Numbered from the stretch's first letter, positions 5,133-22,300 are shown. The stretch is 34,382 nt of DNA from Nitrospiraceae bacterium (GCA_013140715.1 JABFSG010000019.1:1-34382); one strand, 5' to 3'. Program-made: numbers and translations. The notes: generated by a model from the sequence alone, not told the origin.

Positions 5133-5214
5133 CCTTTCTCATCTTTTTATTCCGTTCCCGCTGTGCTAAGACTCTGTGCACGATTCAGGCGCATTCACCT
5201 GCATGAGAGGCGCC

Positions 5215-7407
5215 ATGACCATCCAACCTTGGATCACCTGCCTGCAAAGCGGAATACTCATCCGCTATCTCGACGCTCGCTACCCTGAACAGGCATCGAA
5301 AGTCGATCTCCAGCGAGTCATGGGAGCAGCCGAATCATTCCAGGAGATTCAGGATGCCCGTGCGTTCCTGACCGATTCAAGCAATTGGATTCCCCATTCG
5401 GTTTTCCGTGAGTTGATCAAGAGCTGCGAGTTGGCTACAGGCCAGAAGGACTTTACCTATCAGGCCGCTCTGGCCTACTACGAAACCGTCAAGACGCAGA
5501 CCCCGACACTGATTGAAACGATCGCGATCCTCCTCAACGACGTCGAATCGGTCTTTCGTTCTGTCGGCAACTGGGCCTCGGCCTATACGAATTATCTCCA
5601 ACTTCAGTCATTCGTCTGTCCCGATGAAACACAGACCTTGCACATTCTGTCTCGCAACTTGCCGCCGGTCGATCCCGGACTTGGAAACATGCGTCTCGTG
5701 CAAGGCAATCTCGAAGGCACTGCGAAACTGGATCCCTCCGTCGAGACTGCCACCTGCGAAGAGGCCTATTCACAACTCCGCCTAGAAACCCTGGTCCATG
5801 AATTCGGCGACGCCTATGACATGACCACGAAGAACGATCGGATTACTGTAGCCCGCCGATCGACGGGTGACGTCGTGATCACGGGACGAACGATTCGCCT
5901 CGCTCATACGCGGATGCCCATCAAAACCGATGGTATACCCGCTCCGCATGGTTCCGACGAACAGCTTGTCGCCGCGCTTGATGGGCCGAACCATCTCTCG
6001 GTCTGGACGGCTGAAGAGCCGGCCCGAGGATCCAAGACACACCTCCCCAAACAGGACGATCATTGCACCGCGATCCACATCGAACGCGGCGGGACCCTTT
6101 CGGCTGGATCACTCAGCACCACGATCAAGGCCGGTGCAATCTACAACGCGCCGTATACCCATTACCGCCTGCGTTGGACAAATCACCCTCCACACACGAA
6201 CAACACCACTGCCGCCGGTCGCTCGCAATTCTTGACGAACCGCCGCGCCTTCGCGCATCAGCTCTTTACGCATTTGAAAAACCTGCAGACGACACATCGG
6301 CACATGCTCACCATGTTCCTCCGCAATGTGGAACTGATACAGGAGAATATCCAACTGAAGCAGGAGCTGTCTGCGCAGCAAGAAACCGGCGGCATCATCG
6401 GCAAGAGCTCCCCGCTTCTAGATCTACTTTCACTCATCAAAACCATCGCCCCTTCGGACACAACCGTGCTGGTGACCGGAGAAACAGGAACGGGGAAGGA
6501 ACTCACCGCCCGTTTGATCCATCAACTGAGCCGGCGGAAGGACCGTCGCTTCGTTGCCGTAAATTGTGGAGCACTGCCAGAAACGCTCTTGGAAAGTGAA
6601 CTGTTCGGTCACGAGAAAGGATCGTTCACCGGCGCGGTCGCACAGAAGAAAGGGAAATTCGAGCTCGCCGAAGGAGGCACACTGTTCCTGGACGAAATCG
6701 GGGATATCTCGCCCGCGGTGCAGGTGAAATTGCTGAGAGTGCTTCAAGAGCGAGAGTTTCAGCGCGTAGGAGGAACGAACGATCTTACAGCCAACATCCG
6801 GCTGATCGCCGCTACCAATCGAGACCTCCTGGCGATGATGGAGCAGAACCAGTTTCGGAAAGACCTGTTCTATCGTTTGAATGTCATCCAGCTCTATGTC
6901 CCGGCCTTGCGGGAACGTCCGGAAGATATTACTGAGCTCGCCCAGCATTTCGTCCAGCGATTCGCCGAGAAGATCGGGAAATCGATCGCGGGCTTGACGC
7001 CGGACGCATTGCGGCTCTGTCTGTCGTATAAATGGCCCGGTAACATCCGCGAATTGGAGAATGTCATGGAGCGCGCCGTGACGTTGGCGCCGGAAGGCAA
7101 GAAGTGGATCACTCACGACCTGCTCCCGAACAATCTACGTTCGACCACAGAATCGGCGCCCTCGCTCGATCTTGCCGAGTTGGTGGACCGTGTTGACTGG
7201 AGTGCGCTGTTGAAAACCCTGGAGACGCGAGGATCGCTCACCGGGCTCTTGAACTATCTCGAGTGGACCATCACGCGCCGCGCCGTCGCCGAATATGGCG
7301 GCAACAAGAGCCACGCAGCCAAGGTGTTGGGACGTACCTATCGTTGGCTAAGAAAGCTGGAAAGCGAAATGACCGGACCTCAGCCTCCATCTTCTCCACC
7401 ACAGTAA
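5215..7407 (+). CDS. Sigma-54-dependent transcriptional regulator
   Basis: The product is 730 residues from the ATG at 5215, which has GAGAGG just upstream; GTG 5176 and ATG 5203 are alternatives. The AAA+ domain (about residues 392-620) has GETGTGKE (Walker A), the GSFTGA loop that contacts sigma-54, [11 protein letters not shown] (Walker B) and [10 protein letters not shown]. The C-terminus has a Fis-type helix-turn-helix ([20 protein letters not shown]). A coiled stretch ([19 protein letters not shown]) links it to about 370 N-terminal residues that I do not recognise, not a plain response-regulator receiver domain: no phospho-acceptor pattern was seen. It presumably senses a signal and activates an unidentified sigma-54 promoter. 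GSFTGA has Ser where GAFTGA is standard, a common variant. Confidence 0.93.
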
Positions 7408-7554: not shown

Positions 7555-8868
7555 TCAGCTTCCTACCAGAATAGCTGATTGGAAGTTCCCGGGCTGGCCT
7601 GGTATCTGAAACAGAATCCTGACACCTTCGTCTGCTAACGCGATATCAAGGAGGCTGTCCCCGTTCAGATCGGCAATAGCCACACCTGTAGGCCCACTCG
7701 CCCCCGGCCGATTCACTGCAGGAAGAAAGGCTCCTGGCGTGCCTGGGTTCTGGAAAAATACTGACACATTCCCGGCGATGTTGGAGAATGTACCCGCGTT
7801 CGCCACTGCTAAGTCCGCCTTCCCATCCCCGTTGAGATCTCCAACGGCGACGGACCAAGAGTTGTCTCCCGTGGCGTAGTTGGTCGCAGTCGAAAAGCTT
7901 CCCGGAGAAGCCGAACTGTTAAGGAGGACGGAGACGCTGGCCGTTCCTGCACTGTTGCCAGTGCCATAATTCGCAATCGCAAGGTCGAGTAGACCATCTG
8001 CATTAAGATCGGCAATCGCAACGTTTTTAGGTTGAAATCCTGCCGCAACCGTTTGCGGCGGCAAGAACGTGCCAGCTTCTGCCGGGTTCTGCAGGAAAAG
8101 TTTTACGTTCCCCGCATTAGCACAAGCAGCGACGAGGTCGGCTCGACCATCCACGTTGAGGTCGCCGATGCCGACAGAGGAGCAATTGACCCCCAGGCTT
8201 AATGGAGAGAAGAAGGTTCCCGGGTCACTAGCATTCTGAAAGAGAATGGAAAGCCCGGAGTCAGCGACCGCGATATCGAGGTGGCCGTCTCCGTTCAGAT
8301 CTCCAATTGCAACCCCATTTGGATGAGCGCCGACCCCAAGGTTCTGTGCTGTTAGGAAGGTGCCGTGCGAGGAGGAATTTTGGAATAGGATGGAGATACT
8401 AGCTGAGGATTCGTTTGCTGCCACCAAATCCATGAGGTTGTCGCCGTTGAGATCCCCTATGGAGACCATTAAAGGATCACTGCCTACGGCAAGGTTCATG
8501 GCACTGCCGAAAGCACCAGGGGAGGACTGACTTTGCAGAATGACCGACACGTGGCCTGGATGTGGTGGTGGACCAGCGATGAACGTATTAGCTGAGGCGA
8601 TGTCTGGACGACCATCGCCATTCAGATCACCCACCGCGACTGAGAAGGTTATCGTGAAAGGAGGGATTAGATCGTCATTACTACAGCCGCCAAGCGACAA
8701 GACAATGCATATGGTGATAAATAGGCGCGCCGACGACAACGGACGAGCGAACCTGTCCTTTGGACTCGCGGTCCTTCCGGGCGCCGGACCAGCAAATTGC
8801 GTCATGCCCAGAAATTCTCTCGCGGAGCGAACCAAAAAAAGAAGACTTGTCACGCTGCCGGTTTGCAT
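7555..8868 (-). CDS. FG-GAP/VCBS-repeat lipoprotein
   Basis: Seven repeats of about 50 residues carry the FG-GAP calcium-loop signature: VAVGDLNGDGRPDIASAN, VSIGDLNGDNLMDLVAAN, VAIGDLNGDGHLDIAVAD, VGIGDLNVDGRADLVAAC, VAIADLNADGLLDLAIAN, VAVGDLNGDGKADLAVAN and VAIADLNGDSLLDIALAD. Such repeats form a beta-propeller. A lipobox (IVLSLGGC) follows a hydrophobic stretch, so the protein is probably a surface or outer-membrane lipoprotein. The start is uncertain: ATG 8868 has AAGAGG 6 bases upstream, but the signal stretch lies 45 or more residues in, and ATG 8805 gives a shorter n-region. The upstream region contains the first paired palindrome (9043-9079). Function unknown; adhesion is a guess. Confidence 0.8.
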   Translation of the reverse strand: MQTGSVTSLLFLVRSAREFLGMTQFAGPAPGRTASPKDRFARPLSSARLFITICIVLSLGGCSNDDLIPPFTITFSVAVGDLNGDGRPDIASANTFIAGPPPHPGHVSVILQSQSSPGAFGSAMNLAVGSDPLMVSIGDLNGDNLMDLVAANESSASISILFQNSSSHGTFLTAQNLGVGAHPNGVAIGDLNGDGHLDIAVADSGLSILFQNASDPGTFFSPLSLGVNCSSVGIGDLNVDGRADLVAACANAGNVKLFLQNPAEAGTFLPPQTVAAGFQPKNVAIADLNADGLLDLAIANYGTGNSAGTASVSVLLNSSASPGSFSTATNYATGDNSWSVAVGDLNGDGKADLAVANAGTFSNIAGNVSVFFQNPGTPGAFLPAVNRPGASGPTGVAIADLNGDSLLDIALADEGVRILFQIPGQPGNFQSAILVGS

Positions 8869-9042
8869 CAATGTCCTCTTGCGCATAGAGTCGCTGCACC
8901 AAGGCTTTTCTAAAACCAAAGGAAACGCAACCTCTGTGCCAGAACGGCTGCCACTCACCAGTAGGTTAATTATCGCTAGGATCTTGAGCAGAAAATCAGC
9001 CGGCACTTATGGAAAGAGGCCGGGGACGCGAGGAGTCTAATT

Positions 9043-9079
9043 ATGAACGGGAGTTCATGTAGTCGAAACGGCTGTTCAG
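9043..9079. promoter_or_regulatory. Paired palindrome I (putative operator)
   Basis: A perfect ATGAAC-GGGA-GTTCAT palindrome (9043-9058) is followed by a degraded copy CGAAAC-GGCT-GTTCAG (9064-9079). The starts are 21 bp apart, two helical turns. It lies about 175 bp upstream of the FG-GAP gene. Confidence 0.55.
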
Positions 9080-9222
9080 GGCGAGAGAGATTTTTTTGCC
9101 CCAAGATCCGGCGGCAAAAACCTTGTGAAACCTCTAGCGGGTATCTTTGCGATTTCCTTCAGGATCAAGTAGAGGAAACAATTCCTGGAGCTGTTTCCTG
9201 TTACATTTTGCACGAGAATCTT

Positions 9223-9259
9223 ATGAACGATCGTTCCTAGATTATGAACGATCATTCAC
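9223..9259. promoter_or_regulatory. Paired palindrome II (putative operator)
   Basis: ATGAAC-GATC-GTTCCT (9223-9238) and ATGAAC-GATC-ATTCAC (9244-9259) again start 21 bp apart. They lie between the FG-GAP gene and the secreted protein at 9616, about 360 bp before the latter. A short inverted repeat, AGGAAACA...TGTTTCCT, sits just upstream at about 9174-9200. Confidence 0.6.
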
Positions 9260-9483
9260 GGACAAGGCGTATGTGCCGGTCAAATTCTTCTGCACGGCAC
9301 CTACAACAATCTCCTGGCTTCCTTATCGGCTTGGTTCCTTTGGATCAGATTTGATTCACACCAGCCTTCAAATAGATTCAGCAGAAACCAATCTTGCAAT
9401 GAAATAATCCTACCGTTTTGAACGGCCATCTCTTTCTCCCATCAATGACCCGGCCCACCTCTTGCACAATCACTTGAGCATCT

Positions 9484-9591
9484 ATGGATTGGCGCAAGTT
9501 TCTTCAAATGGTCGAAGAAGAGCTGCGGCATCGTTCCATGATACAGAAACCTTGGAGGGTACTGTGGCCGCCCCCCTCGGTTCGAACATAG
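9484..9591 (+). CDS. Possible small ORF (35 aa)
   Basis: The ATG at 9484 opens a 35-codon frame that starts MDWRKFLQMVEEELRHRS and ends at TAG 9589. The charged, amphipathic start looks more protein-like than random, but there is no good ribosome site and the tail is proline-rich. It ends 24 bases before the secreted-protein ATG. It could be a fragment of a lost gene or a leader peptide. Confidence 0.2.
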   Translation: MDWRKFLQMVEEELRHRSMIQKPWRVLWPPPSVRT

Positions 9592-9615
9592 GCCGCTCAC
9601 ATAGGAGGGATTACC

Positions 9616-10218
9616 ATGCGCACTCAACGACTCATCACTTATGCGTCTATTGTGTGTCTTGTTGTATTATCAGCAGGGTCAGCCATGGCCTTCGGCGAAC
9701 GAGATAATCCCAATGCGTTGCTGAAAGGGAAGTATCGGTTCAGCCAAAACAACACCTGCGCCATAGTCCTTGGTCCCGACGGCTTCACCGACCAACTTGT
9801 GACATTGGGGGATGGTTTCCCGGCCTGGCTCTACTTAACTGGAGTTGCTACCTACGATGGCGTCGGTAATGTCACAGTGAAGGATCACGGCATCTTCATT
9901 GGTGGAGCCGGCCCGTCGCCATTTTCCCAGGGCAACCAACCTGTAAGCACATTCGCGGATAACTGCAGCGGGACATATGAGGTGAACCCCCGAGACAGGA
10001 GCTTTACTCAAAAATCTAGCTGCACAGCTACTGATGGCTCGTCGTATAAGTTAACCGGCATCAAGTTTGAGGGCCAGATGAGTCCCGATAGTTCGGTCTT
10101 GATCTTGAGCTCGGCCGAGCCAGATGTGCAAACATTGAACGTACCCGCCGCGAACGGAGTTGCCGCAAAGCGCATCTGCGGGGCTCACGTCACATCAGTA
10201 CGCATGCGCCAAGAATAA
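9616..10218 (+). CDS. Small secreted protein of unknown function
   Basis: The product is 200 residues with a clear Sec signal peptide (LITYASIVCLVVLSAGSAMA, cleavage expected after residue 25) and a strong ribosome site, GGAGGG, 6 bases before the ATG. The mature part has four cysteines (NTCAIV, DNCSG, SSCTA, KRICG), likely paired as disulfides in the periplasm or outside the cell, and many Gly/Asn-rich turns consistent with a beta-fold. I do not recognise a family. It follows the paired palindrome at 9223-9259 and is monocistronic, with more than 500 bp to the next gene. Confidence 0.75.
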   Translation: MRTQRLITYASIVCLVVLSAGSAMAFGERDNPNALLKGKYRFSQNNTCAIVLGPDGFTDQLVTLGDGFPAWLYLTGVATYDGVGNVTVKDHGIFIGGAGPSPFSQGNQPVSTFADNCSGTYEVNPRDRSFTQKSSCTATDGSSYKLTGIKFEGQMSPDSSVLILSSAEPDVQTLNVPAANGVAAKRICGAHVTSVRMRQE

Positions 10219-10773
10219 GCGAACTCGGTTAGAGCGGTAGAGTCGGAAGGGTGGAGACGAACGTCGAGGGTAGGCAAGGCGCCGGCTTCATCCTTTCTCT
10301 CATCTCGGTTTCGGTTCCTGCCACCGAATAGTCATTCTGTAACACACGAGGCGCAGCGATTACACGAACAGTCAGGGGAAACTCCGACGGAAGCCTCCCC
10401 TGCGCCACGAGCCACGAAGTGAATCAACCACTGCATGCCGGTATCGAGTGTTGATCTCCCCGTAAAGCCTTACCTGGCACAAGAGTGTAAAGATTCGCTT
10501 TTCACATCAAATATGCACGATTATCTTTTTAAATTTGACTCATACCCATTGAGAACTCCCGTTCAGGTGCTCTGAACCGCCGTTCATAGTCCGGGCTTGC
10601 TGATCTCGCCACTCTGGTTGCCTTCCGATCAGGCCAATCGCGCAAAGTCCCGCCCACCAAGCTCTCAGACGAAACCGCTCCATCTGACCGTTCTCGGCGC
10701 ATTCCTTGCTCACGCAACAGAGTGAACCGGTACAGAGTCCTCCAAGGAACGACGCACTAACCAGGAGGCGGCT
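10219..10773. other. Intergenic region with duplicated leader copy 1
   Basis: There is no convincing gene here. The second half, 10531-10728, is a leader of about 200 bp that recurs at 12617-12815. Shared blocks include GAGAAC-N4-GTTCA, the ATAGT following the second palindrome, CCAATCGC, CGAAACCG and ATTCCTTGCTCACGC or its close variants. The first half is unremarkable. Confidence 0.6.
10551..10587. promoter_or_regulatory. Paired palindrome III (putative operator)
   Basis: GAGAAC-TCCC-GTTCAG (10551-10566) and CTGAAC-CGCC-GTTCAT (10572-10587) start 21 bp apart, 187 bp before the beta-barrel gene at 10774. TTGACT at 10535-10540 could be a -35 element, but no matching -10 is evident. Confidence 0.65.
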
Positions 10774-11430
10774 ATGAGATCAACGCTTGTCAGATGGACG
10801 CTCCTAATCGGACTGGGAACCGTACTCCTGCTGGCGCTCCCGTGCTTCCCCCTCGTTGTTTCTTCAGTGGCTCAAGCTGCCGAGGAGTCTGCCCTCTCAG
10901 TCTCTGATCATGCCCGTGCAGATACCCTCGTCAAGCGCAAGACATGGTGGACGGCACTCAATTTTGGAGCTGGATCTCTATCCCAATCTGGAGGGGGAAT
11001 GAATCAGCATGACACCCCCGGTTTCCTTGGCATTGAAGGTGGCTACGTCGTTCACCCGCAATTCTTGGTGGGTATCGAGTTAAGTGGGTGGCTCCAGGAA
11101 TCAAGCAACAGAGAGAACCCTGCCGTAGGAGAAGGGATCATGCAGGCCTTTCTGACAACGCGCTACTATCCACTCCCCGATTCCGGGCTTTTTATGAAAT
11201 TCGGAGGCGGCTATGTGAATCACTGGAATAACCGGCCAGGTGAGCCACAAAGGCTCAGTGGGTGGGGACTGACCGCTGGAGGTGGTTACGATGTGCTGCT
11301 CACCGAGTCCCTTCCAGTGCTTCCCTTTGTGACCCCCTTTGTCACGTACAGCTTCGGCGAAGCCGGCGACCTGAATCACAACGCCATCACAGGCGGCATC
11401 GGCCTGACGATCACAGGGAATGGAAAGTGA
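10774..11430 (+). CDS. Outer-membrane beta-barrel protein
   Basis: The product is 218 residues with an N-terminal signal peptide (LIGLGTVLLLALPCFPLVV...AQA, cleavage near residue 35). AGGAGG lies 5 bases before the ATG. The mature protein shows alternating Gly/aromatic strands typical of small barrels: NFGAGSLSQ, FLGIEGGYVVHPQFLVGIELSGWL, AFLTTRYYPLP, LFMKFGGGYV, GLTAGGGYDVLL, VTPFVTYSFG and GGIGLTITG. It probably has 8-10 strands. It follows duplicated leader copy 1 and overlaps the downstream lipoprotein frame at a GTGA, so the two are probably co-translated. Confidence 0.8.
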   Translation: MRSTLVRWTLLIGLGTVLLLALPCFPLVVSSVAQAAEESALSVSDHARADTLVKRKTWWTALNFGAGSLSQSGGGMNQHDTPGFLGIEGGYVVHPQFLVGIELSGWLQESSNRENPAVGEGIMQAFLTTRYYPLPDSGLFMKFGGGYVNHWNNRPGEPQRLSGWGLTAGGGYDVLLTESLPVLPFVTPFVTYSFGEAGDLNHNAITGGIGLTITGNGK

Positions 11431-11468
11431 CGGAGGACCACGGACTCACTGAGGATCCGGTTGTGGCG

Positions 11469-12086
11469 ATGCAGAAATCGTCCATGAGAACCCGCAGCCT
11501 CATTCTCCTCGTACTTCTCGTCACCCTCTCCGGCTGTGAGACGTATCGCGATTTCCCGATTGTGAATCCACTCCCAAGCCCATATAAGCCGGCAGCACCT
11601 CCTCGTTGTCATCAGACCATTAAGTTCCCAGGTGGTCCGGTAAATCGACCACTGATCTATAGGACAAATTTGAGTATTCTACTGCAAGAAGCACTTAAAG
11701 ATTACGGAGGCTGTAGCAGCAGTTCGCCTGTCGTTGATAATTCTAAGGGGGCAGAGACGGAAGTCGTGGTCAGCGTTCTGGACAAAAAATCACATCCTAT
11801 GTGGTATGAGATACCTATGGGACTGTTTTTTATAGGATCGGGCGGTTTATTTCCCATCTATGGTTGGCAAGGCGGCTGGGAGTTATCCTACAGCGTATAT
11901 GACCAATCTGTACTCCAAAAGACGTACAACTACGAAATTACGGCGAGGACATTAATCTCGATAGTGGGGCTTCCATTCCTCTGGATTAACTTCTTTACCT
12001 ATAGTTTCGATGATGCGGTGCGTTCGACAACAGCGCAATTTGTCATGGATGCCCAACGAGACGGGTATCTGGGAACAGCGGAGTGA
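11469..12086 (+). CDS. Lipoprotein of unknown function
   Basis: The ATG at 11469 gives 205 residues with the lipoprotein signal SLILLVLLVTLSGC (lipobox LSGC). A GTG at 11427, overlapping the previous gene's TGA, would give 14 more residues. The middle and C-terminal part (YSVYDQSVLQKTYNYEITAR...FLWINFFTYSFDDAVRSTTAQFVMD) resembles the C-terminus of the lipoprotein at 14904-15584 (KLFDRNGQLQKTYSYDDG...SVWENMIRTLF). I take the two as paralogues. It sits directly after a beta-barrel gene and is followed with a GTGA overlap by the nuclease pseudogene. Function unknown; a role in assembling or tethering the barrel is only a guess. Confidence 0.75.
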   Translation: MQKSSMRTRSLILLVLLVTLSGCETYRDFPIVNPLPSPYKPAAPPRCHQTIKFPGGPVNRPLIYRTNLSILLQEALKDYGGCSSSSPVVDNSKGAETEVVVSVLDKKSHPMWYEIPMGLFFIGSGGLFPIYGWQGGWELSYSVYDQSVLQKTYNYEITARTLISIVGLPFLWINFFTYSFDDAVRSTTAQFVMDAQRDGYLGTAE

Positions 12087-12586
12087 CTCGTTGGACAAGA
12101 GCTAGCCTTCGGGGCGGCTGTGCCGGTGTGCTGCTTCTACTCCTGTGTGCTTCTCTCGCAACTGCCGACTTCTCCGGCTCTGTTGTCGGTATCCTCGACG
12201 GCGACACCATCGAAGTCCTGCACAACCAACACCCTGAACGCATTTGCCTTAGCGGGATCGATTGCCCTGAGAAAAGCCAAGCCTATGGACAGAAAGCCAA
12301 GCAGGTCGCCTCGGACCTCGCCTTCGAGAAGGAAGTCACGCTATAGATCCACGGCTATGACAAGTACCAGTGCTCTCTTGCAAATATCCTTCTGCCCGAT
12401 GGAATGAATCTCAATCAGTAACTCCTCAAGCAGGGCTGGTGCTGGTGGTATTAAAAGTATGCGCCAGGGGATACGGTGCTAGAAGGGCTAGGAACAGAAG
12501 CATGAAAAGCGAAGCGAGGGTTCTGGGCTGATCCGCAGCCGGTGTCTCCGTGGGAGTGGCGGAGGCCTGGCCGAGCGCAACGGTAA
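12083..12586 (+). pseudogene. Staphylococcal-nuclease-like (thermonuclease, SNc) pseudogene with four in-frame stops
   Basis: The frame starts at a GTG overlapping the previous stop. It has a signal peptide (GVLLLLLCASLATA) and the SNc start GSVVGILDGDTIEVL...ERICLSGIDCPEKSQAYGQKAK. TAG at 12344 stops it after 87 residues. Past this stop the same frame keeps clear family sequence (IHGYDKY, NILLPDGMNLNQ, LLKQGWCWWY, KYAPGDTVLEGL, KAKRGFWADPQPVSPWEW) up to TAA 12584, interrupted at 12419 (TAA), 12452 (TAA) and 12503 (TGA). There is no frameshift. All four stops fall where homologues normally have sense codons. An intact relative would be a secreted nuclease that cuts DNA and RNA; this copy is probably dead. 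Confidence 0.85.
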
Positions 12587-13356
12587 ACGCTTCGATTCTC
12601 CGTCTTACCCCGTTTGCAATTCGACTCGTAGCCCTTGAGAACAGCCGTTCATGTACTATGAATCGCCATTCATAGTGCGAGCTTCATGATCCAGCTATCC
12701 CGGTGACCTTCCGGTCCAGCCAATCGCACAAAGCCCTTCCTACCACAGACTGCAACGAAACCGTCCAGCCTGACCGTCCCTAGGCGCGTTCCTTGCTCAC
12801 GCGGCACAATGAACCTGAACTGAATGCTCGGAGGGAAGCCCCCATGTGCGAACATTCGACGGTCAACTTCTTATTTCTCGATCCGGTAATCAAACTTGAT
12901 TCATCACCGAATCGTTTTCGATTCATGTGGACCGCTTTCCATCATCGTAGAGGAGTTTCTGTCAGAGGTAATTCTTGGGAACATCACAGACTACGACAGA
13001 GGACAGATGCATTTCTTATTAGGCACATGGCTTGCTCGATATTCGCATAGCCAGGGTTACTCATGAATGCCGCCGCGAGGCGTTCATGACCGAAACCCGC
13101 CGAAGCTTATCGCACGTATGGACGACAAAGGCGCAGGTGCGGTTCGTCGAGAAGGCTGAACAAGAAAAGCCCAGCCGGGCGAGAGCTTCGGACGACGTAG
13201 CAGGTCTTCATGAATAGTCAGGGTTACATACGAGTTGCCGGTTCCTAGGTTTGTGACCAAGGGGGGGCTGCAATGGTCTTCACCGTATCTCGGTGCTCAG
13301 CTCTTCCTCACCGAATCCCGTCCAATGTGGATCGCTCATTCACCAGGAGGTGGCAT
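12587..13356. other. Intergenic region with duplicated leader copy 2 and a hairpin
   Basis: The region holds leader copy 2 (12617-12815) with a paired palindrome, then a possible 68-residue ORF at 12844-13050 (start MCEHSTVNF, GGAGGG 8 bases upstream) of no recognisable family. It also contains a hairpin TCATGAATGCC...GGCGTTCATGA (13061-13090) with a 7-base loop and no T-run, and two direct copies of CAGGGTTAC (13052 and 13219). It may be the remains of a second barrel gene that once followed leader copy 2. Confidence 0.5.
12637..12673. promoter_or_regulatory. Paired palindrome IV (putative operator)
   Basis: GAGAAC-AGCC-GTTCAT (12637-12652) and ATGAAT-CGCC-ATTCAT (12658-12673) start 21 bp apart, inside duplicated leader copy 2. 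The second half-sites have changed together (GAAT/ATTC), so the symmetry is kept, which argues for selection. Confidence 0.65.
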
Positions 13357-14004
13357 ATGAAACGCTTGGGTTTCGCGCTAGGACTATGGTCCCTTTTAGT
13401 AGGACTGTGTTGCTTAATGCTATCCGGCCGTTCAGCCCAAGCAGAGATGTATGTCGCGGGGCAGATCGGCTACACGTCACCGAATAACTTGAGCAATGTG
13501 CAAGGGACCGGGGCTATCTCAGGCTTGTCCTTCTCCGATCTAAAATTGCATGATTCTATCGTCTACGGAGCGAAAGTTGGCTATTACCTTCCAAGTGTGA
13601 ATTGGCTCGGAGTAGAGACGGAAATATTTAACACCACTCCACAAGTCAAACAGCAGCCGATTACTATTTTAGGCATGACGGCGCCTGCGCCTGGTTTCAA
13701 TCTGAACGTCTTCACGTGGGCGATCAACGCCATGGTTCGCTATCCAGGCAAACAGTTTCAGCCTTATGCAGGTGTAGGCGTGGGGCTGTTCTTTGCGGAA
13801 GCGAAGTTCCAAGGGCAGTCGGACAAAGATGTCGCACCCGGCCTGAATGCATTAGCTGGGCTGCGCTATTTTGCGACTGATCGCATCGCGCTTTTCGCTG
13901 AGTATAAATACAACCGTGCAGCGTTCGACTTTCCTGATGCGATAGGACTCAAAGCGGACTACTCGGCAAACCATTTCCTTGGGGGTGTGTCGCTCCACTT
14001 TTAG
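13357..14004 (+). CDS. Outer-membrane beta-barrel protein (OmpA-like, beta-barrel porin fold)
   Basis: The ATG at 13357 has AGGAGG 6 bases upstream and gives 215 residues; earlier in-frame starts lack this. A signal peptide (FALGLWSLLVGLCCLMLSGRSAQA) precedes alternating strands: MYVAGQIGYTSP, IVYGAKVGYYLPS, WLGVETEIFNTTP, VFTWAINAMVRYPG, FQPYAGVGVGLFFAEAKF, NALAGLRYFATDRIALFAEYKYN, and a last strand NHFLGGVSLHF. The C-terminal Phe is the usual Bam-recognition end. The fold matches the 8-stranded OmpA-like/Omp_b-brl group. It is followed by a PEGA lipoprotein. Confidence 0.85.
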   Translation: MKRLGFALGLWSLLVGLCCLMLSGRSAQAEMYVAGQIGYTSPNNLSNVQGTGAISGLSFSDLKLHDSIVYGAKVGYYLPSVNWLGVETEIFNTTPQVKQQPITILGMTAPAPGFNLNVFTWAINAMVRYPGKQFQPYAGVGVGLFFAEAKFQGQSDKDVAPGLNALAGLRYFATDRIALFAEYKYNRAAFDFPDAIGLKADYSANHFLGGVSLHF

Positions 14005-14088
14005 CTAATGTGCCCGACTCACATAGCGTCTGACACAACCACAGGAAGCAGGCACACTGCCTCAAACAACAAGAATGGAGGTCGAAAC

Positions 14089-14727
14089 ATGAAGATCCCT
14101 TCCAACCTCATCAAGATTCTTATCCTAATAACCCCGATGCTGATATTAGGTTGTGCCACCATCGTTGTGGGAGATAAACAATCTCTAACGTTTGACTCAG
14201 AGCCGGCTGGCGCACAAATAATCATTAACGGTAAGCCGGAGGGCGTTACTCCGGCAACAATCACGATAAAGAAATCTGATTACCAAAACGCGACTGTCGT
14301 CTTTAAAAAAGAGGGTTACACAGATCAGCAAGCTACCCTCCATACGAAAACGACCGGGTGGTTTTGGGGAAATATTCTAATCGGCGGCCTTTTTGGGTCT
14401 ACCACTGACTCTAGTACCGGGGCAATGTTGGAATATGAACCAGCTAAATTTTTTGTGACGATGCCCCCTGCAAAGGCCTCACTCAACGAAATGGCACGAC
14501 TGGATTACCAGAACAGGGTGAGAGCGTATATTTTATTCAGCCACCAACATTTGGTTTCCGATCTAGCTAAAGGATCAGGCGAGCACCTATCTAGCCTCTA
14601 TGTCTTGCTGGGATTAACGGAAGCCAGGCAGCAAGGGGCCCTTCGTGAATTACGAACGTTGGCGGCAATCTCCGATAATGCCCCCGCGTTTGCTGAGGCA
14701 GTGCTTAAAATATTGCCGAATGGATAG
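14089..14727 (+). CDS. PEGA-domain lipoprotein with a C-terminal DUF3015-like region
   Basis: The ATG at 14089 has GGAGG 7 bases upstream and gives 212 residues. The lipoprotein signal ends in LILGC. A PEGA domain spans about residues 28-80 (LTFDSEPAGAQIIINGKPEGVTPATITI...FKKEGYTDQ), followed by a hydrophobic Gly-rich stretch (TTGWFWGNILIGGLFG). The last 70 residues (YILFSHQHLVSDLAKGSGEH...LYVLLGL) resemble the lipoprotein at 29156-29536 (FATFNQANVEQDLARGQGEY...LGTLMGL), which I place near DUF3015 from memory. PEGA domains often bind or sit against surface-layer structures. It follows the beta-barrel gene by 85 bp, probably in one transcript. Confidence 0.8.
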   Translation: MKIPSNLIKILILITPMLILGCATIVVGDKQSLTFDSEPAGAQIIINGKPEGVTPATITIKKSDYQNATVVFKKEGYTDQQATLHTKTTGWFWGNILIGGLFGSTTDSSTGAMLEYEPAKFFVTMPPAKASLNEMARLDYQNRVRAYILFSHQHLVSDLAKGSGEHLSSLYVLLGLTEARQQGALRELRTLAAISDNAPAFAEAVLKILPNG

Positions 14728-14813
14728 ACTGCTCTGATCGGGTCAGGTGGGGTCGGATGTCCGAATCCGGCCCCCAGCCGTTCCTAAAGGAGAGGGCCTG
14801 TGGGACTCCAGCG

Positions 14814-14839
14814 CTCGCAACAGCGACATCGGTTGCGAG
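14814..14839. other. Hairpin in the gap before the 14904 gene
   Basis: CTCGCAAC and GTTGCGAG form an 8-bp perfect stem with a 10-base loop in the 176-bp gap between two lipoprotein genes. There is no T-run, so it is not a classical terminator; RNA stability or attenuation are possible. Confidence 0.3.
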
Positions 14840-14903
14840 ATGGAGATACGGCTGAAGAAAAGCGGCCGGCGGGGTCCCAGGAATCGAAAGAGAGGAGAAA
14901 ACA

Positions 14904-15584
14904 ATGTCACCCCCCATCAATGATCGGATAACCCTTGTTCCAGTCCAGGATTTACTCCCTGCTAAGCGAAACACGATTGGTCGTGTCGCATGGATCGTGC
15001 TCTTAGCGTTCATCACAACGGCATGTGCATCATTTCCAGATAACCGATTGCCGAAGGTTGAAGAAACCCTGACTCAGGCGCAGGGCTCAAACAAGCCATC
15101 GGCATACTTGGCTCTACGGTGTATGGTCGATCTTTCGGAGGGGGGCGAGCAGCCTGGCGTCGAAACGGTCGGCCCGCTACCGATGCTACGACAAGTCGTG
15201 GAGAAGGTCGTCGCGGAATCAGCGCTCTTCCGCAGCTACACTTTTGATTCGTTTCAGGCTAAAAATACAGACCGCGTGCTGCAGATCGAGATGAGGAACT
15301 ACGGGAGCTTGGGGAAAGCGATCGGTGCGGGCCTGCTTACGGGCCTCACGCTCTTTCTGATCCCGTCCGCGGCGACGGACAACTACAAGCTTACCGCAAA
15401 GCTGTTCGACCGCAACGGACAGTTGCAGAAAACCTACTCCTACGACGATGGCATCACGACGTGGTTCGGTATCTGGCTCCTTCCGATGGCGGGGAATACG
15501 CCCCAGAGCGCTGTTCTCAGTGTTTGGGAGAACATGATCCGGACATTGTTCCGCGATGTGTTAAAGGACAACCTGTTGTCCTGA
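14904..15584 (+). CDS. Lipoprotein of unknown function, paralogue-like to the 11469 gene
   Basis: The product is 226 residues with GAGGAG 6 bases before the ATG. A 24-residue n-region precedes the membrane stretch RVAWIVLLAFITTAC (lipobox ITTAC); this long n-region is unusual. The C-terminal half has IEMRNYGSLGKAIGAGLLTGLTLFLIPSA followed by KLTAKLFDRNGQLQKTYSYDDG and SVWENMIRTLFRDVLKDNLL, resembling the lipoprotein at 11469. The short hydrophobic stretch may insert in a membrane. No function is recognised. Confidence 0.75.
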   Translation: MSPPINDRITLVPVQDLLPAKRNTIGRVAWIVLLAFITTACASFPDNRLPKVEETLTQAQGSNKPSAYLALRCMVDLSEGGEQPGVETVGPLPMLRQVVEKVVAESALFRSYTFDSFQAKNTDRVLQIEMRNYGSLGKAIGAGLLTGLTLFLIPSAATDNYKLTAKLFDRNGQLQKTYSYDDGITTWFGIWLLPMAGNTPQSAVLSVWENMIRTLFRDVLKDNLLS

Positions 15585-16168
15585 TCGTAGGAGTCTCGTG
15601 TCCTCTCGCCTAAGGCTTTCGGGCAGCCCGTGCAGGGAAGAAATAAGTTAGCGGACCGAGTCTGTTCATGACTCATACCTTCATTGCTTAACAGACACTC
15701 AAACCGACACCCAAGAGCGCCTCGGTTTTTCCGAGCGTCCGTGGTGAGTGCGACCTAGTTTGACCCTTAAGCATATGGGGGAAACAGTTCCAGGAGCCAT
15801 TTTCTGCCCTATCACCGATTAGTGGATTACGCTGGGCTGCCGCACGGCAACTGCAATCTAGATCGAACGACATTGCAAACGGCCAGTTTCTCGCTGCAAA
15901 GCATGATGCTGGCCGTTCTGTCTATTTCGGTGCATTCTCCCCTTGGTCCGCCCATGAACAACCGTTGCCATCCTCTGAACAAGCGTTCATAGTTTTTCCG
16001 CGAGATAGTTTCACATCCTGTCGTCAGCCGGCAATCCAGAATGGTGCGATTGCCTAAAACTCCCCATCTGACGCCCACCTCCGCTTGACGCCAGGTTGTG
16101 CCATGAGAGGCACAACTGTTGCTGAACTGATCGTCATGAACTCACCGGCTCCGCGAAGGAGGATCGCC
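15585..16168. other. Intergenic region before the FPLYRY-repeat gene
   Basis: No gene was seen. It contains an inverted repeat GTCTGTT...AACAGAC near 15660-15697, a GGAAACAGTTCC stretch at about 15779 that resembles one at 9174, a 9-bp perfect inverted repeat AACGGCCAG...CTGGCCGTT (15878-15886 and 15909-15917), and the fifth paired palindrome. Confidence 0.5.
15954..15990. promoter_or_regulatory. Paired palindrome V (putative operator)
   Basis: ATGAAC-AACC-GTTGCC (15954-15969) and CTGAAC-AAGC-GTTCAT (15975-15990) start 21 bp apart, about 180 bp before the start of the 1013-residue repeat protein. Confidence 0.6.
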
Positions 16169-19100
16169 ATGACGATGTCAAGATGCCGCCTGTTGAAGCT
16201 AGGGATGTTGCTTGTCGTGACCATGTTGTTCCCATTCGAAGTATTGGCCGAGGAAGACGGGGAGTCTCAGGATATCAGACGCCACTGCATCGGACTCTTG
16301 TGGTGCATCGAGCAGTCGCCCGGCGCAGTCTCTACTGATGGCCTGCTATGGCTCTATTCGGCTGAAGAGCGAGGCAGCTATTCTCGGCTGGCAGTGCGAC
16401 CTCTGTACTCCATGGAGGAAGATCCGACGCGCGACCTGCTACGGCGAAGCATCCTCTGGCCATTGGGGACCTATGAACGGAGAGGAGACCACGCCTGGGC
16501 TCATGTCTTTCCCCTCTATTGGCACTCTGAAGGGCCGGGCCAGGAATGGACCTTCACTGTCCCGCTCTATCTGAAGTCGATCCACGGAGACAGCGCATGG
16601 CATCATCTCTTTCCCTTGTTCAGTCGCCATGTCATGGGCGAGTACTACGCAAGAAACTTTGTGCTCGGTCCCCTGTTGATTACGACGCGCGACACCCGCA
16701 CCGACCTGACTCAATGGGATCTCCTCTTTCCTTTCTTTCACTATCGACAGGATCTGAATTCGTCGAACAGCTGGCTCTTCCCGCTCTATTGGTCGGGCGA
16801 AGACCCATCGAAGAGCGAAGCCTATCGCTACATCCTGCCGCTCTACGGTTCCTCTGACGACCCATCCCAACACTACCATTTCCTTTTCCCATTCTATGGC
16901 TATGCCGATAACACCTCGACCCATGTCAAGCGGCTCGCCATACTCGGCTTGCCTCCAGCGAAAGGATTCTCCGCAATACCTTCTTTAGCGCTGTTCGAAC
17001 AGGTGACGACGGGCGATGAGACGAGTCATCGGATATTTCCGCTCTACAGCTATGTCTCAGGCGCGGATGGCAGCAGCACTTTCGACGCGCTCCTCCTATA
17101 CCGCCATCAGACTGCACCATCCGGCACCATCGACCGATTCTTTCCGTTGTATCGATACGAGGGGAACGCCGACAGCCAGACCCATGAATTCGATTTGTTG
17201 GGCTATCGCGAAGCCTCTTGGTTTCGCTATGAAGACAATCCGGACAGGACTCAACACTGGCTCCTAGGGCTATACAACTACGACGGTAGCCGGGATGGAC
17301 CTTCTCAGCTCTCCGCGCTTGGCTATCGCCGCCTGTCCCTCTATCTCCACCGGAGCCAGGACAATCTGACCGAAGATCGGCTCGTTCCTTTGTACGACTA
17401 CTTCCGACAAGGCAACAACAGTGTGCTCTCTCTCCTCGGCATGTCCGAAATTGCCTTGTACCGTCAGGAATCGAGTCCCTCTCTATTTCAACATCGACTG
17501 TTTCCGCTCTATCGGTACCGGCACGATCTTGCAAAGGACGAAACACAATTCGACGCGTTGCTTCTGTATCGCCATCTGACCACACCGGTCCAGACCGCAG
17601 ATCGACTGCTCCCCTTCTGGGACTATGCCGGAGCGACCACCGAAGCAGACTGGCGTATCAGTCTTCTCGGAATTGAGTCCATGGCACTCTATCGCCACGA
17701 TAGCAACGACGCGCACACGTCGGACCACCTATTCCCCTTCTACGGCTATCGTAGCGAGCAAAATGGAGACACTCGGTTCAGCGTATTGGGGCTACCACCA
17801 TTCGGCCAGCTTGCAGCCTGGTCTCTCTACGAACATGACCACTCCTCGACTGAGGTGAACGACCGTTTCTTCCCCCTCTACCGTTACCGGAAGGACACAA
17901 CAGAGCAGGCGTCAGAATTCGACATGCTGGGAATGGGGTCAGCCTCCCTCGTTCACCACGAGGCGACTCCGACTAGCGTGACAAACCGTGTATTCCCACT
18001 CTATCGATATGCTCACGATGAAAAAACAGGGCAGACCACGATCAATCTGCTTGGAGTCGAACCGGTGAGTCTCTTCCGATCTCAGAGCAGCCCCACACAG
18101 AATGCTCACCATGCCTTCCCACTCTACAGTTACCGACAAGCCGGTGAAGCCCACCGCCTTTCGGCCATCGGCCTCCCCTCGATCGGCAGCATGCCTGCCT
18201 TGTCGCTGTATGCGCACGAGACCACGCCTTCCACTCTGCATGATCGGCTGTTTCCGATTTACAGCTATCGTGCAAACGACGCAACCGACAGCACCTCATT
18301 CTCTGCACTCTGGATGTTCTGGCGCACAACATCACCGACCACGAGCCAGACCAGTCTTTTCCCCATCGCGAGTATGACAAAAGATGAGGCGACGGGTGAA
18401 ACAAGCTGGTCTTTGATCGGACTCGAACCCGCTATTCCGATGAGTTGGATTCGCCATACCTGGTCACCTACTGGCAGTAGCGGACTCTTCTTCCCGCTCT
18501 ATAACTACCGGAACGAAGGAAACCAGTCCGTCCTGTCGATCGGTGGAGTCTCACACCTGGCGATTTATCGTCAAGAAACGACACCGACGTACCACAGCCA
18601 TCGACTCTTCCCCCTCTACAGCTTCCAACAAGACCTCACCCAAGACGTGGCACAAACGAGCATCCTGCTGGCTTACCGACACGAGCGGTCTTCCTCCGGT
18701 TCGAAAGACATTTTCATCCCCTTGTGGCACTACGAGCGCCACGATGAGCAAAATGAACGTCGGTTCAATGCGCTGGGCCTTGGCAACTTCTCGCTCTACG
18801 AACACCGGACGACATCGGCCGGCACGACCGACCGTTTCTTTCCCCTGTACAAGTACGAGTCCACGCGTGAAACCGGCACCGCGGAGTTTTCATTCATCTG
18901 GCCGCTAGTCGATTACAAAAACCGGCAAGGCACCGTCACATCGGTCAGTTTGCTATGGTGGCTGATCTCATACGAGCATCCGGATGCAGACCATTCCAAC
19001 TTCCATTTCCTCGGAGGTTCAAAGATGGCCGTGGTCCGGCGCATGACTTCTCCCAGAGAATCAGTGTTTGAATTCAACCCGATCATTCCGCTGTATCGGT

Positions 19101-19210
19101 ATCGGCATGAGACGGAGAGGGGAACCTCCTGGGATCTCTTCGGAGGGCTGGTGGGAATGGACAGGGCCAAGGAACAGACTCGCATGAAGCTGTTCTGGCT
19201 GTCTCTGTGA
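16169..19210 (+). CDS. Exported giant repeat protein with about 25 FPLYRY-type repeats
   Basis: The ATG at 16169 has AGGAGG 6 bases upstream and gives 1013 residues; earlier ATGs are unlikely. A signal peptide (KLGMLLVVTMLFPFEVLA) is followed by about 25 copies of a [FL]FP[LFI][YFW]xY strand: HLFPLFSR, LLFPFFHY, RIFPLYSY, RFFPLYRY, RLFPLYRY, HLFPFYGY, RVFPLYRY, AFPLYSY, LFPIYSY, FFPLYNY, RFFPLYKY and IIPLYRY. From about residue 290 the unit is roughly 35-46 residues: FFPLYRY, a charged turn, a FDxLLLYRH or LLGxxxxSLYRHE strand, then a TTPxxxxDR turn. Each unit looks like two amphipathic beta-strands with aromatic girdles, suggesting a very large barrel or beta-sheet in the outer membrane. The last repeat ends in LFWLSL. 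I know no named function. Confidence 0.8.
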   Translation: MTMSRCRLLKLGMLLVVTMLFPFEVLAEEDGESQDIRRHCIGLLWCIEQSPGAVSTDGLLWLYSAEERGSYSRLAVRPLYSMEEDPTRDLLRRSILWPLGTYERRGDHAWAHVFPLYWHSEGPGQEWTFTVPLYLKSIHGDSAWHHLFPLFSRHVMGEYYARNFVLGPLLITTRDTRTDLTQWDLLFPFFHYRQDLNSSNSWLFPLYWSGEDPSKSEAYRYILPLYGSSDDPSQHYHFLFPFYGYADNTSTHVKRLAILGLPPAKGFSAIPSLALFEQVTTGDETSHRIFPLYSYVSGADGSSTFDALLLYRHQTAPSGTIDRFFPLYRYEGNADSQTHEFDLLGYREASWFRYEDNPDRTQHWLLGLYNYDGSRDGPSQLSALGYRRLSLYLHRSQDNLTEDRLVPLYDYFRQGNNSVLSLLGMSEIALYRQESSPSLFQHRLFPLYRYRHDLAKDETQFDALLLYRHLTTPVQTADRLLPFWDYAGATTEADWRISLLGIESMALYRHDSNDAHTSDHLFPFYGYRSEQNGDTRFSVLGLPPFGQLAAWSLYEHDHSSTEVNDRFFPLYRYRKDTTEQASEFDMLGMGSASLVHHEATPTSVTNRVFPLYRYAHDEKTGQTTINLLGVEPVSLFRSQSSPTQNAHHAFPLYSYRQAGEAHRLSAIGLPSIGSMPALSLYAHETTPSTLHDRLFPIYSYRANDATDSTSFSALWMFWRTTSPTTSQTSLFPIASMTKDEATGETSWSLIGLEPAIPMSWIRHTWSPTGSSGLFFPLYNYRNEGNQSVLSIGGVSHLAIYRQETTPTYHSHRLFPLYSFQQDLTQDVAQTSILLAYRHERSSSGSKDIFIPLWHYERHDEQNERRFNALGLGNFSLYEHRTTSAGTTDRFFPLYKYESTRETGTAEFSFIWPLVDYKNRQGTVTSVSLLWWLISYEHPDADHSNFHFLGGSKMAVVRRMTSPRESVFEFNPIIPLYRYRHETERGTSWDLFGGLVGMDRAKEQTRMKLFWLSL

Positions 19211-19311: not shown

Positions 19312-22300
19312 GTGGACAGTCTTCAGCACAAACCTTCAGATATCAGCCCTATTTTGCACCCCCTTCGCGGCCTCCTCATTGCGCAATTTTTCGGCGCATT
19401 CAACGACAATGCCTGGAAGCTCATGGTCGCTTTGCTGGCGATCAAGCAGGCCACGGCTCAGATGGCGCCTGGGCCGGAGATGGAGACCGCGGCACAGACG
19501 CAGACGGCAATCACATTCATTATCTTCACAGTGCCACTGGTCCTACTGTCGTTAATCGGCGGGACGTTGGCCGATCGCCTCAGCAAACGCACGGTCATCA
19601 TCGCAATCAAAATGGTCGAGGTCTGCCTCATGAGCGCCGGCACTCTTGCGCTCTGGCTGAACCCCTCCGGCGGAATTCTTCCGCTGATCGTCTTATGCGG
19701 GATGGGAGCGCACAGCGCGCTCTTCGGCCCGTCGAAATACGGCATTCTCCCCGAGTTGATTCCTCATGAACGTCTCGCTTCGGGCAACGGCCTGTTGGAG
19801 GTTTGGACCTTTGCCGCCATCCTGGGGGGAACAGCAGCCGGGGGCTTTCTCTTGCAAACCGCCGGTAACCATCTCTGGCTGGCGCCCCTTGCCTTGGCCC
19901 TCTTATCTCTGGCCGGCCTGGTTGCAGCCTTTACCGTTCCCCGGGTCTCGCCGGCCCGCACATCCGGCGGTGTCGGCTCCACGATCCGCGGAGCCTGGGC
20001 CGCCATTCAAACTGAACGATTGCTGCGCCTTGCCATACCGGGAGAAATCTTTTTCTGGACGATCGCAAGCCTTTTCGCCCAGAACATACTCGTCTATGCC
20101 AAAACCGTGCTGCACCTTTCGGATGCGATGTCGGGGCTCCCGCTCACATTGTTGTCCGTCGGCATCGGCGCCGGAGCCCTATTGGTCGGGCGACTGTCTC
20201 AAAACCGGATCGAGTATGGACTGATTCCCTTGGGGGCCGTTGGCGCATCCATGGCGCTATCCTTGCTCGGCGCACTGACCCCGCCATTGTTCGGAACGTT
20301 TCTGGTATTGGGACTTCTGGGAGTTTCCTGTTCATTTATTTTTGTCCCGTTGAATGCCATTCTTCAATGGAGATCACCGGCCGATCGGCGAGGCGCCGTC
20401 ATCTCTTTCTCCAACACCTGCGTCTTCACCGGAATCCTCTTGGGATCGCTCGCCGGTGGCTCCCTCGCCAGTGGTGGATTTTCGACGAGCGGCATTTTTC
20501 TCATCACGGCAGGAGTGACCGTCTGCGGCACCCTGTGGGCCCTTTGGCTGATGCCAGATCTGTTCCTGCGGCTCTTGCTCATCATCTGCACAAATACGCT
20601 CTATCGCCTCCGCATTGTGGGGCAGGAACATATTCCCCCATCGGGTGGAGCGTTGCTCGTTCCAAACCATATGTCCTTCGTCGATGGCTTCTTGCTCATG
20701 GCCAGCGTCGATCGGCCCATACGGTTCGTGGTGGACGCCGCCTACGCGGAACACCCGCTGTTTAAGTGGTTGATGACCGCCATGAAGGTCATCCCCATCG
20801 CGTCAGGGGGCGGCCCCCGCATTATTCTTCGCGCCCTACGGAACGCAGGACAGATGCTCGACGACGGAGAGATTGTCTGCATCTTCCCAGAAGGGCAGAT
20901 CACCCGTACCGGCACTCTGCTGCCGTTTCGACGCGGCTTCGAACGGATTGTGAAAGGACGGCAGGCGCCGATCATTCCCGTACATCTGGATCGCCTATGG
21001 GGCAGCATCTTTAGCTTTGAGCGCGGGCGGTTCCTCACCAAATGGCCTGAGCGCATTCCCTATCCGGTCTCCGTGTCCTTCGGCGCAGCGTTGCCGTCGG
21101 ACACACCGGCGTACAAACTCCGCGAAGCAGTCCGCACACTTGGAGAGGCAGCCTGGCGCCTGCGCAAATCCTATCGTCGCCCCCTGCATCGTGAATTCAT
21201 CCATGCCATGAGGAGACATCCCTTTCGCTTCGCCATGGCAGACCAGACCAAGCCACACCTGTCGTCGCTCCAATCCCTGATCGGGTCCATCGTATTGGGT
21301 AGAACGCTTCGACACCAGTGGGAAGAGCAGCGTCATGTGGGAATCCTCCTCCCACCGACTGTCGCCGGCGCATTGGTCAACGTGGCTGCTCTCCTGTGCG
21401 GGAAAACCAGCGTGAATCTGAACTACACGGTCGGCAAATCTGGCATCGAAGCAGCCGTGAGACTGGCAAGCCTGCGCACGATCGTGACCAGCCGAGTCTT
21501 TGTCGAGAAGGCCAAGTTGGAGTTGCCGGACGGCCCCTCGATTATCTGGCTGGAAGACGTCGCCCGCACCATCGGCACAGGGAGGAAACTCTTCGCCGGT
21601 CTCCTCGCCCTCTGCGCCCCTGCGCGGCTGATCGAATTGGCCTGCGGACAGAACAGCCCCCTGACGATGGACGATCTGGCCACCATCATTTTCAGCAGCG
21701 GGAGCACAGGGGAGCCGAAAGGCGTGATGCTGTCTCACTTCAACGTGGACGCCAACGCTCAGGGAGCCAGCCAGATGCTCCATCTCTATCAAGACGAGCG
21801 GGTCCTCGGAATTCTTCCCTTCTTCCATTCGTTCGGGTATCTCGTATTCTGGTTAGCCATGTTCAATAACGCAGGCGTCGTGTTTCACCCCTCTCCGCTC
21901 GACGTCGCAGCCATCGGCGGACTCGTGAGCCGTTACCGCATCACGTTCCTTGTGACCACACCGACTTTTCTCCAACTCTATTGCCGCCGCTGTACGCCGG
22001 AGCAATTCAGCTCGCTGCGGGTGGTCCTGACCGGCGCCGAGAAACTGCCGTCCAGGCTCGTGCAGGCATTTGCCGATCAGTTCGGCATTGCCCCCATCGA
22101 AGGCTACGGCGTCACCGAATGCGCTCCTGTCATCGCTGTCAATTGCCCGGACTTCCGAGCAGCCGGATACTACCAGCCTGCCTCGCGGCGGGGCACTGTC
22201 GGCCAGCCGCTGCCCGGCGTATCGGTGCAGATCGTCGATCCCGACAGCTTCACCCCATTGCCACCGGACACTCCCGGCATGCTGCTGGTCAAGGGTCCCA

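Follow-up and report, generated by a model that had tools for sequence, protein, structure and literature searches.

Paired TGAAC-N4-GTTCA palindromes as candidate enhancers of sigma-54 promoters at exported-protein genes in a Nitrospiraceae genome

Palindrome pairs, sigma-54 promoters and an activator gene lie together at one locus

The stretch of DNA analysed here, 34,382 nt from Nitrospiraceae bacterium (GCA_013140715.1, JABFSG010000019.1:1-34382; hereafter the window), carries five intergenic pairs of palindromes among genes for exported proteins and beside a gene for a predicted sigma-54-dependent bacterial enhancer-binding protein (bEBP). Each pair consists of two copies of TGAAC-N4-GTTCA whose starts are exactly 21 bp apart, and every one of the five is followed, 102-192 bp downstream, by a strong sigma-54 (-24/-12) element. 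The features are listed below, with mismatches counted against the 20 fixed bases of a pair and genomes in the comparison designated by G numbers.

5215-7407, plus strand: gene for the sigma-54 enhancer-binding protein, about 730 aa, with an N-terminal domain, an AAA+ domain with a GSFTGA loop and a probable C-terminal Fis-type helix-turn-helix (HTH)
7555-8868, minus strand: FG-GAP repeat lipoprotein gene, candidate target 1 (FG-GAP_3, E = 4e-47); start moved to behind the promoter, its precise position being uncertain
8926-8941, minus strand: sigma-54 -24/-12 element TGGCACAGAGGTTGCG, preceding the FG-GAP lipoprotein gene; joint top score in the window
9044-9078, unstranded: palindrome pair 1 (candidate enhancer), 2 mismatches; gap of 102 bp to the minus-strand promoter 8926-8941
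9224-9258, unstranded: palindrome pair 2 (candidate enhancer), 2 mismatches; gap of 192 bp to promoter 9451 (191 in G016, 196 in G102)
9451-9466, plus strand: sigma-54 element CGGCCCACCTCTTGCA, preceding the 200-aa signal-peptide protein gene
9616-10218, plus strand: open reading frame (ORF) for a 200-aa signal-peptide protein, candidate target 2; promoter and start the same in G016
10552-10586, unstranded: palindrome pair 3 (candidate enhancer), 1 mismatch; gap of 108 bp to promoter 10695 (same in G005, G016 and G015)
10695-10710, plus strand: sigma-54 element CGGCGCATTCCTTGCT, preceding the barrel-like protein gene at 10774
10774-11430, plus strand: ORF for a 218-aa exported barrel-like protein, candidate target 3
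about 11490-12086, after ORF 10774-11430: lipoprotein ORF, LIC12231-like
12638-12672, unstranded: palindrome pair 4 (candidate enhancer), copy of 10552, 3 mismatches; gap of 109 bp to promoter 12782
12782-12797, plus strand: sigma-54 element AGGCGCGTTCCTTGCT, duplicate promoter behind pair 12638
15955-15989, unstranded: palindrome pair 5 (candidate enhancer), 2 mismatches; gap of 118 bp to promoter 16108 (117-118 bp in G000, G005, G011, G013 and G023)
16108-16123, plus strand: sigma-54 element AGGCACAACTGTTGCT, preceding the FPLYRY-repeat gene
16169-19210, plus strand: FPLYRY-repeat exported protein gene (LA_1737-like), the most widely conserved candidate target

The promoter test asked for GG-N10-GC at -24/-12 with the consensus TGGCAC/TTGC, which was present at 5/5 pairs, and the five pair-linked elements rank among the top sigma-54 scores of the window; by chance, 4.6% of window positions would have such an element downstream. 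The enhancers of bEBPs are repeated palindromes, as a rule at 80-150 bp from the promoter on its upstream side (PMC4987338). Gaps of 102, 108, 109 and 118 bp fit this range, 192 bp being the one outside, and over related loci the pair-to-promoter gaps cluster at 108, 117-120, 134-135, 142-144 and 191-196 bp. The genome encodes one RpoN (a single Sigma54_DBD gene, E = 1.3e-56).

The pairs are not perfect copies of each other. The first palindrome of both 10552 and 12638 starts AGAAC, and 9044 and 15955 have one weaker half each. Pairs 10552 and 12638 have about 170 bp of downstream sequence in common, so that the 12638 pair with its promoter is, on this likeness, a duplicate of the 10552 arrangement and the independent sites number four. 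No convincing ORF lies directly downstream of promoter 12782. The FPLYRY homologue was found behind a pair and a sigma-54 element in G000, G005, G011, G013, G023, G091 and G124, and behind a half site and an element in G019; in G102 the orthologue of the FG-GAP lipoprotein is likewise accompanied by a pair and by a sigma-54-like element.

The specific unit is the pair in its 21-bp register

The first-pass annotation of this DNA had described five pairs in a fixed 21-bp register, confined to these intergenic regions. Both observations were borne out, the true coordinates being one higher than those given there. No pair was found in the dinucleotide-shuffled window. When up to three mismatches were allowed, a search of the whole genome (3,581,610 bases in 105 contigs, 99.7% complete) returned five pairs, all of them in the window, and the same search with the reversed pattern as control returned 0 matches. 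The exact single palindrome occurs in eight copies in the genome, five of which have no partner at 20-22 bp. Since such lone palindromes are partnerless and lie mostly within genes, the single palindrome was rejected as the unit, and the pair is the specific element.

The 21-bp register stays constant across sites that differ in their N4 centres and spacers. When pairs were sought across related loci at all spacings from 14 to 69, 30 were found at 21 bp, 3 at 20 bp and singletons elsewhere. The pairs are thus neither as frequent across the genome as chance would make them nor deprived of their second palindrome in orthologous regions, the two outcomes that the first-pass annotation had named as fatal to its proposal: in this genome they are confined to the window, and they are conserved in relatives.

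The adjacent gene encodes a bEBP with an unmatched N-terminal domain

The listed ORF of the bEBP gene begins at 5176 (GTG), and orthologues favour the ATG at 5215. In G016 an in-frame stop lies upstream of M14; because this stop precedes the true start, the G016 gene is intact. The AAA+ domain matched PF00158 (Sigma54_activat) with E = 2e-71 and a score of 239.6 bits (cut-off 20.2), and AAA_lid_14 was matched as well. The loop that contacts sigma-54 reads GSFTGA in 11/12 orthologues and GAFTGA in G164; a change of A2 to S in the GAFTGA loop is known from LevR (PMC3162934). Within the genus the orthologues are 83-92% identical, and the recognition helix is identical in 12/12 orthologues, down to 44% identity of the N-terminal domain.

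That domain (about 370 aa) had no match in Pfam, and a profile built from it had none among PDB sequences. Against the NCBIfam equivalogs (NtrC, NifA, PEP-CTERM regulator, AtoC, NorR, PspF and others) the protein scored below every cut-off, the top equivalog being NifA with 369 against the required 528.85, over the AAA+ domain only. AlphaFold2 confidence was poor, with a pLDDT of 34.5 for the full protein and 56 for the N-terminal domain; fold searches with this poorly modelled domain gave no Foldseek hit at E < 0.001 and a top VIA-align Z of 7.1 over short stretches. Among the window proteins scanned there was no regulator other than this bEBP.

Pair and bEBP co-occur in related genomes

Full-length bEBP was detected in 7/32 genomes of the genus, and in 7/7 of these a pair is present on the same contig. 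The HTH of the bEBP was found in the same seven genomes and in no others of the genus. In the family (175 genomes) the N-terminal domain of the bEBP is present in 13; a pair occurs in 11/13 of these versus 15/162 genomes without the bEBP (Fisher 6e-9, a value that overstates independence, the genomes being related). Restriction to two mismatches gave 7/13 versus 1/162, and the reversed control gave 0 in the 13 bEBP genomes. Many of the background matches in family members lacking the bEBP are one conserved sequence repeated across several genomes of one genus. One of the bEBP genomes with no pair, G002, is uninformative because its bEBP runs into an assembly gap.

Conservation of the sites themselves was examined in G013, the most diverged of the genus, whose bEBP is 83% identical. 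At its FPLYRY promoter 18/20 fixed enhancer bases are kept compared with 6/15 free bases, and the pair-to-promoter gap is unchanged at 117-118 bp. A footprint taken from the global alignment of the whole promoter showed weak contrast, the per-base count at fixed positions being clearer. In G005 a 27-aa HTH fragment, 78% identical, lies at C59:25643-25723 (about 12143-12223 of locus L049), with a palindrome pair some 500 bp off; the fragment appears to be left over from a second copy of the bEBP.

The pairs are candidate enhancers of the adjacent bEBP

The observed sites, promoters, regulator domains, co-occurrence and conservation point to the pairs being enhancers, that is upstream activating sequences, at which the bEBP of 5215-7407 would activate sigma-54 transcription of the local exported genes. 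We give this reading a probability of about 0.88; binding, activation and the signal are what we infer. The presumed regulon is the local cluster of genes for the FG-GAP lipoprotein and the secreted, barrel-like and FPLYRY-repeat proteins. Each TGAAC-N4-GTTCA would be bound by one bEBP dimer through its C-terminal Fis-type HTH, and two dimers placed two helical turns (21 bp) apart on one face of the DNA could, presumably with cooperativity, seed the AAA+ ring, a hexamer. A signal at the N-terminal domain would promote ring formation. By looping of the DNA, the GSFTGA loops would then reach the sigma-54 polymerase poised at the -24/-12 promoter, 102-192 bp distant, and the ring would open this promoter by hydrolysing ATP. 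The pairs had been read in the first-pass annotation as sites ahead of envelope genes where a dimer-of-dimers regulator binds on a single face of the helix. The architecture fits that description; as to the class of regulator, which that annotation did not identify, the evidence leads to the adjacent bEBP and sigma-54 promoters and away from the LexA and TetR-like families mentioned there.

Several points weigh against this assignment. The weights of the sigma-54 score were chosen by the analyst after the promoters had been spotted by eye, the 192-bp gap of pair 9224 exceeds the usual enhancer distance, and the relatedness of the genomes inflates the Fisher statistics. The HTH_8 match of the bEBP is weak (E = 0.0025, under the Pfam cut-off), with a typical position and a GGNKSRAAKVLGR pattern. 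The genome contains some 26 bEBP-like matches, another of which could in principle bind. G145 has the bEBP and no 21-bp pair, a half site standing before its sigma-54 element; G015 has a pair and no bEBP in an assembly that is 71% complete; and the single pair match in G008 is probably due to chance.

The number of bEBPs in the genome also favours a different binder, either another of these roughly 26 proteins or a TetR-like repressor, with the neighbouring bEBP there by coincidence. A second pair code, described below, exists in the genome and its bEBP would be another one. Against such a coincidence, the pair and the bEBP of 5215-7407 co-occur across the family, the HTH is confined to the same 7/32 genomes, the pairs of distant families lie directly next to the bEBP gene, and no other regulator, TetR-like candidates included, was seen among the scanned window proteins; the TetR-like repressor was rejected on this last ground, and we regard a different binder as improbable overall. 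It is less probable still that the pairs are a dispersed repeat (repetitive extragenic palindromic or miniature inverted-repeat transposable element-like), RNA hairpins or terminators and not protein sites. The common flank of about 170 bp at 10552 and 12638 speaks for such a repeat, but no other sites share flanks (those of 9044 and 9224 overlap each other), the register is kept while the N4 centres and spacers vary, the sites lie upstream of promoters, and the genome has no pairs elsewhere; the repeat was therefore rejected, the flanks being unrelated except in the duplicate. Gram-positive-type LexA operators of the SOS response can be dismissed almost entirely: the GAAC-N4-GTTC core resembles the Bacillus-type LexA box, but LexA_DNA_bind (PF01726) had no match in the 99.7% complete genome in a search that was positive in Escherichia coli and Bacillus subtilis, which refutes the canonical form, and the sites lie beside the bEBP and not at repair genes, with sigma-54 promoters downstream.

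The pair follows the bEBP into distant families

The N-terminal domain of the bEBP was also found in other families of the class. In four genomes of one such family (G301, G349, G370 and G414) a pair stands directly behind the bEBP stop codon, and GGCA[CT]G-N4-TTGT follows 147-158 bp from the pair, with GspH/PilV-like pseudopilin genes after it. The -12 element there is TTGT and not TTGC, so the identity of these promoters is weaker. Near the bEBP loci of the window's genus no pseudopilin gene was found, the presumed targets being exported proteins instead. At loci L113, L114, L118 and L119, in another family of the class, the bEBP gene precedes a GspH/PilV pseudopilin operon, which suggests an ancestral tie of the bEBP to pilins, either type IV pilus-like ones or those of type II secretion.

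The promoter block of the 10552 type is kept in G005, G015 and G016, but with a different lipoprotein gene behind it, as though enhancer-promoter cassettes kept the promoter and changed the gene. We lean slightly towards a broader view, in which a class-wide, undescribed bEBP family with a new sensor domain and its own recognition helix keeps the two-dimer 21-bp code while its regulon changes, from GspH/PilV-like pseudopilins in distant families to the FPLYRY, FG-GAP and barrel envelope cluster in Nitrospira, the 10552-type cassettes being kept as their gene is exchanged.

Comparison with known sigma-54 systems

The closest design is that of NtrC, whose enhancers at glnA and related sigma-54 promoters read TGCACC-N4-TGGTGCA (PMC4987338). 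Common to both are palindromic dimer sites with an N4 centre upstream of -24/-12 promoters and an activator with an AAA+ domain, to which the probable Fis-type HTH may be added; here, in contrast, the half-site is TGAAC, the pair is fixed at 21 bp, and the protein has no receiver domain and an unmatched N-terminal domain. Other enhancers are TGTC-N10-GACA for GlrR, CATTTCGTACGAAATG for FhlA and CGTTTCATGAAACG for PrpR, and PspF and ZraR act in the response to envelope stress (PMC4987338). GlrR, FhlA, PrpR and PspF share the logic of one enhancer-binding protein (EBP) with one palindrome but differ in half-sites and sensor domains; the PrpR core TTTCATGAAA is nearest in letters to the TGAAC sites but lacks the N4 spacer.

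In Desulfovibrio vulgaris, which belongs to a different phylum, comparative genomics of the sigma-54 regulome likewise yielded EBP regulons in which palindromic enhancers stand close to the promoters and many of the functions concern the exterior (PMC4641369); a text search of that paper for a GAAC motif gave none. Sigma-54 has been presented as a controller of the bacterial exterior, with surface components as predicted EBP targets (PMC3162934). The surface targets match the candidate targets here; that paper's statement is a general one, and the portion consulted does not describe the window's EBP and sites. In a literature search of incomplete journal coverage no description was found of the bEBP of 5215-7407, of the TGAAC half-site or of a Nitrospira regulon. 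Judged by its sequence, the locus holds a real regulon of known design, of which the activator family, the sensor domain and the enhancer code appear undescribed.

The same-lineage contigs carry names such as Nitrospira sp. RCB and palsa_1310, which we take to be in or near comammox clade B. Sigma-54 circuits of nitrifiers are scarcely mapped and their genetics is hard. The present assignment would link uncharacterised surface genes of nitrifying bacteria to a regulator and to a class of promoter, and would supply their DNA code, which is simple enough for targets to be predicted across the class. The signal of the unmatched N-terminal sensor domain could now be sought, and switching of the envelope as a unit is directly testable.

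A second pair code and other features of the window

A second type of pair lies in the window outside the TGAAC regulon.

12887-12924, unstranded: palindrome pair, two copies of GAATC-N6-GATTC with starts 22 bp apart
13021-13036, plus strand: sigma-54 element AGGCACATGGCTTGCT, located 97 bp downstream of pair 12887 and ahead of the outer membrane protein gene 13357-14004

Five good places for such pairs were found in the genome (window 12887, G000:C59:13826, C68:84418, C84:22490 and C84:23488). A sigma-54-like element follows each of them at 73-153 bp, and the pairs on C84 lie near two TonB-dependent receptor genes. The pair is conserved in G011 and G023. It is probably the enhancer of another bEBP. 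As it precedes another sigma-54 promoter, the paired-enhancer design is used more than once, which suggests that these genomes make general use of paired enhancers at 21-22 bp.

Within 12672-13350 there is an inverted repeat TCATGAATGCC...GGCGTTCATGA (about 13062-13090), together with the repeated words AGCCAGGGTTAC and AGTCAGGGTTAC; the stretch behind the 12638-12797 duplicate may derive from a lost gene or from an insertion. A secreted staphylococcal-nuclease-like ORF at 12083-12520 has an in-frame stop at about 12344 and is a probable pseudogene. A single ORF of 1149 aa at 19312-22761 fuses a major facilitator superfamily transporter with acyltransferase and AMP-binding domains.

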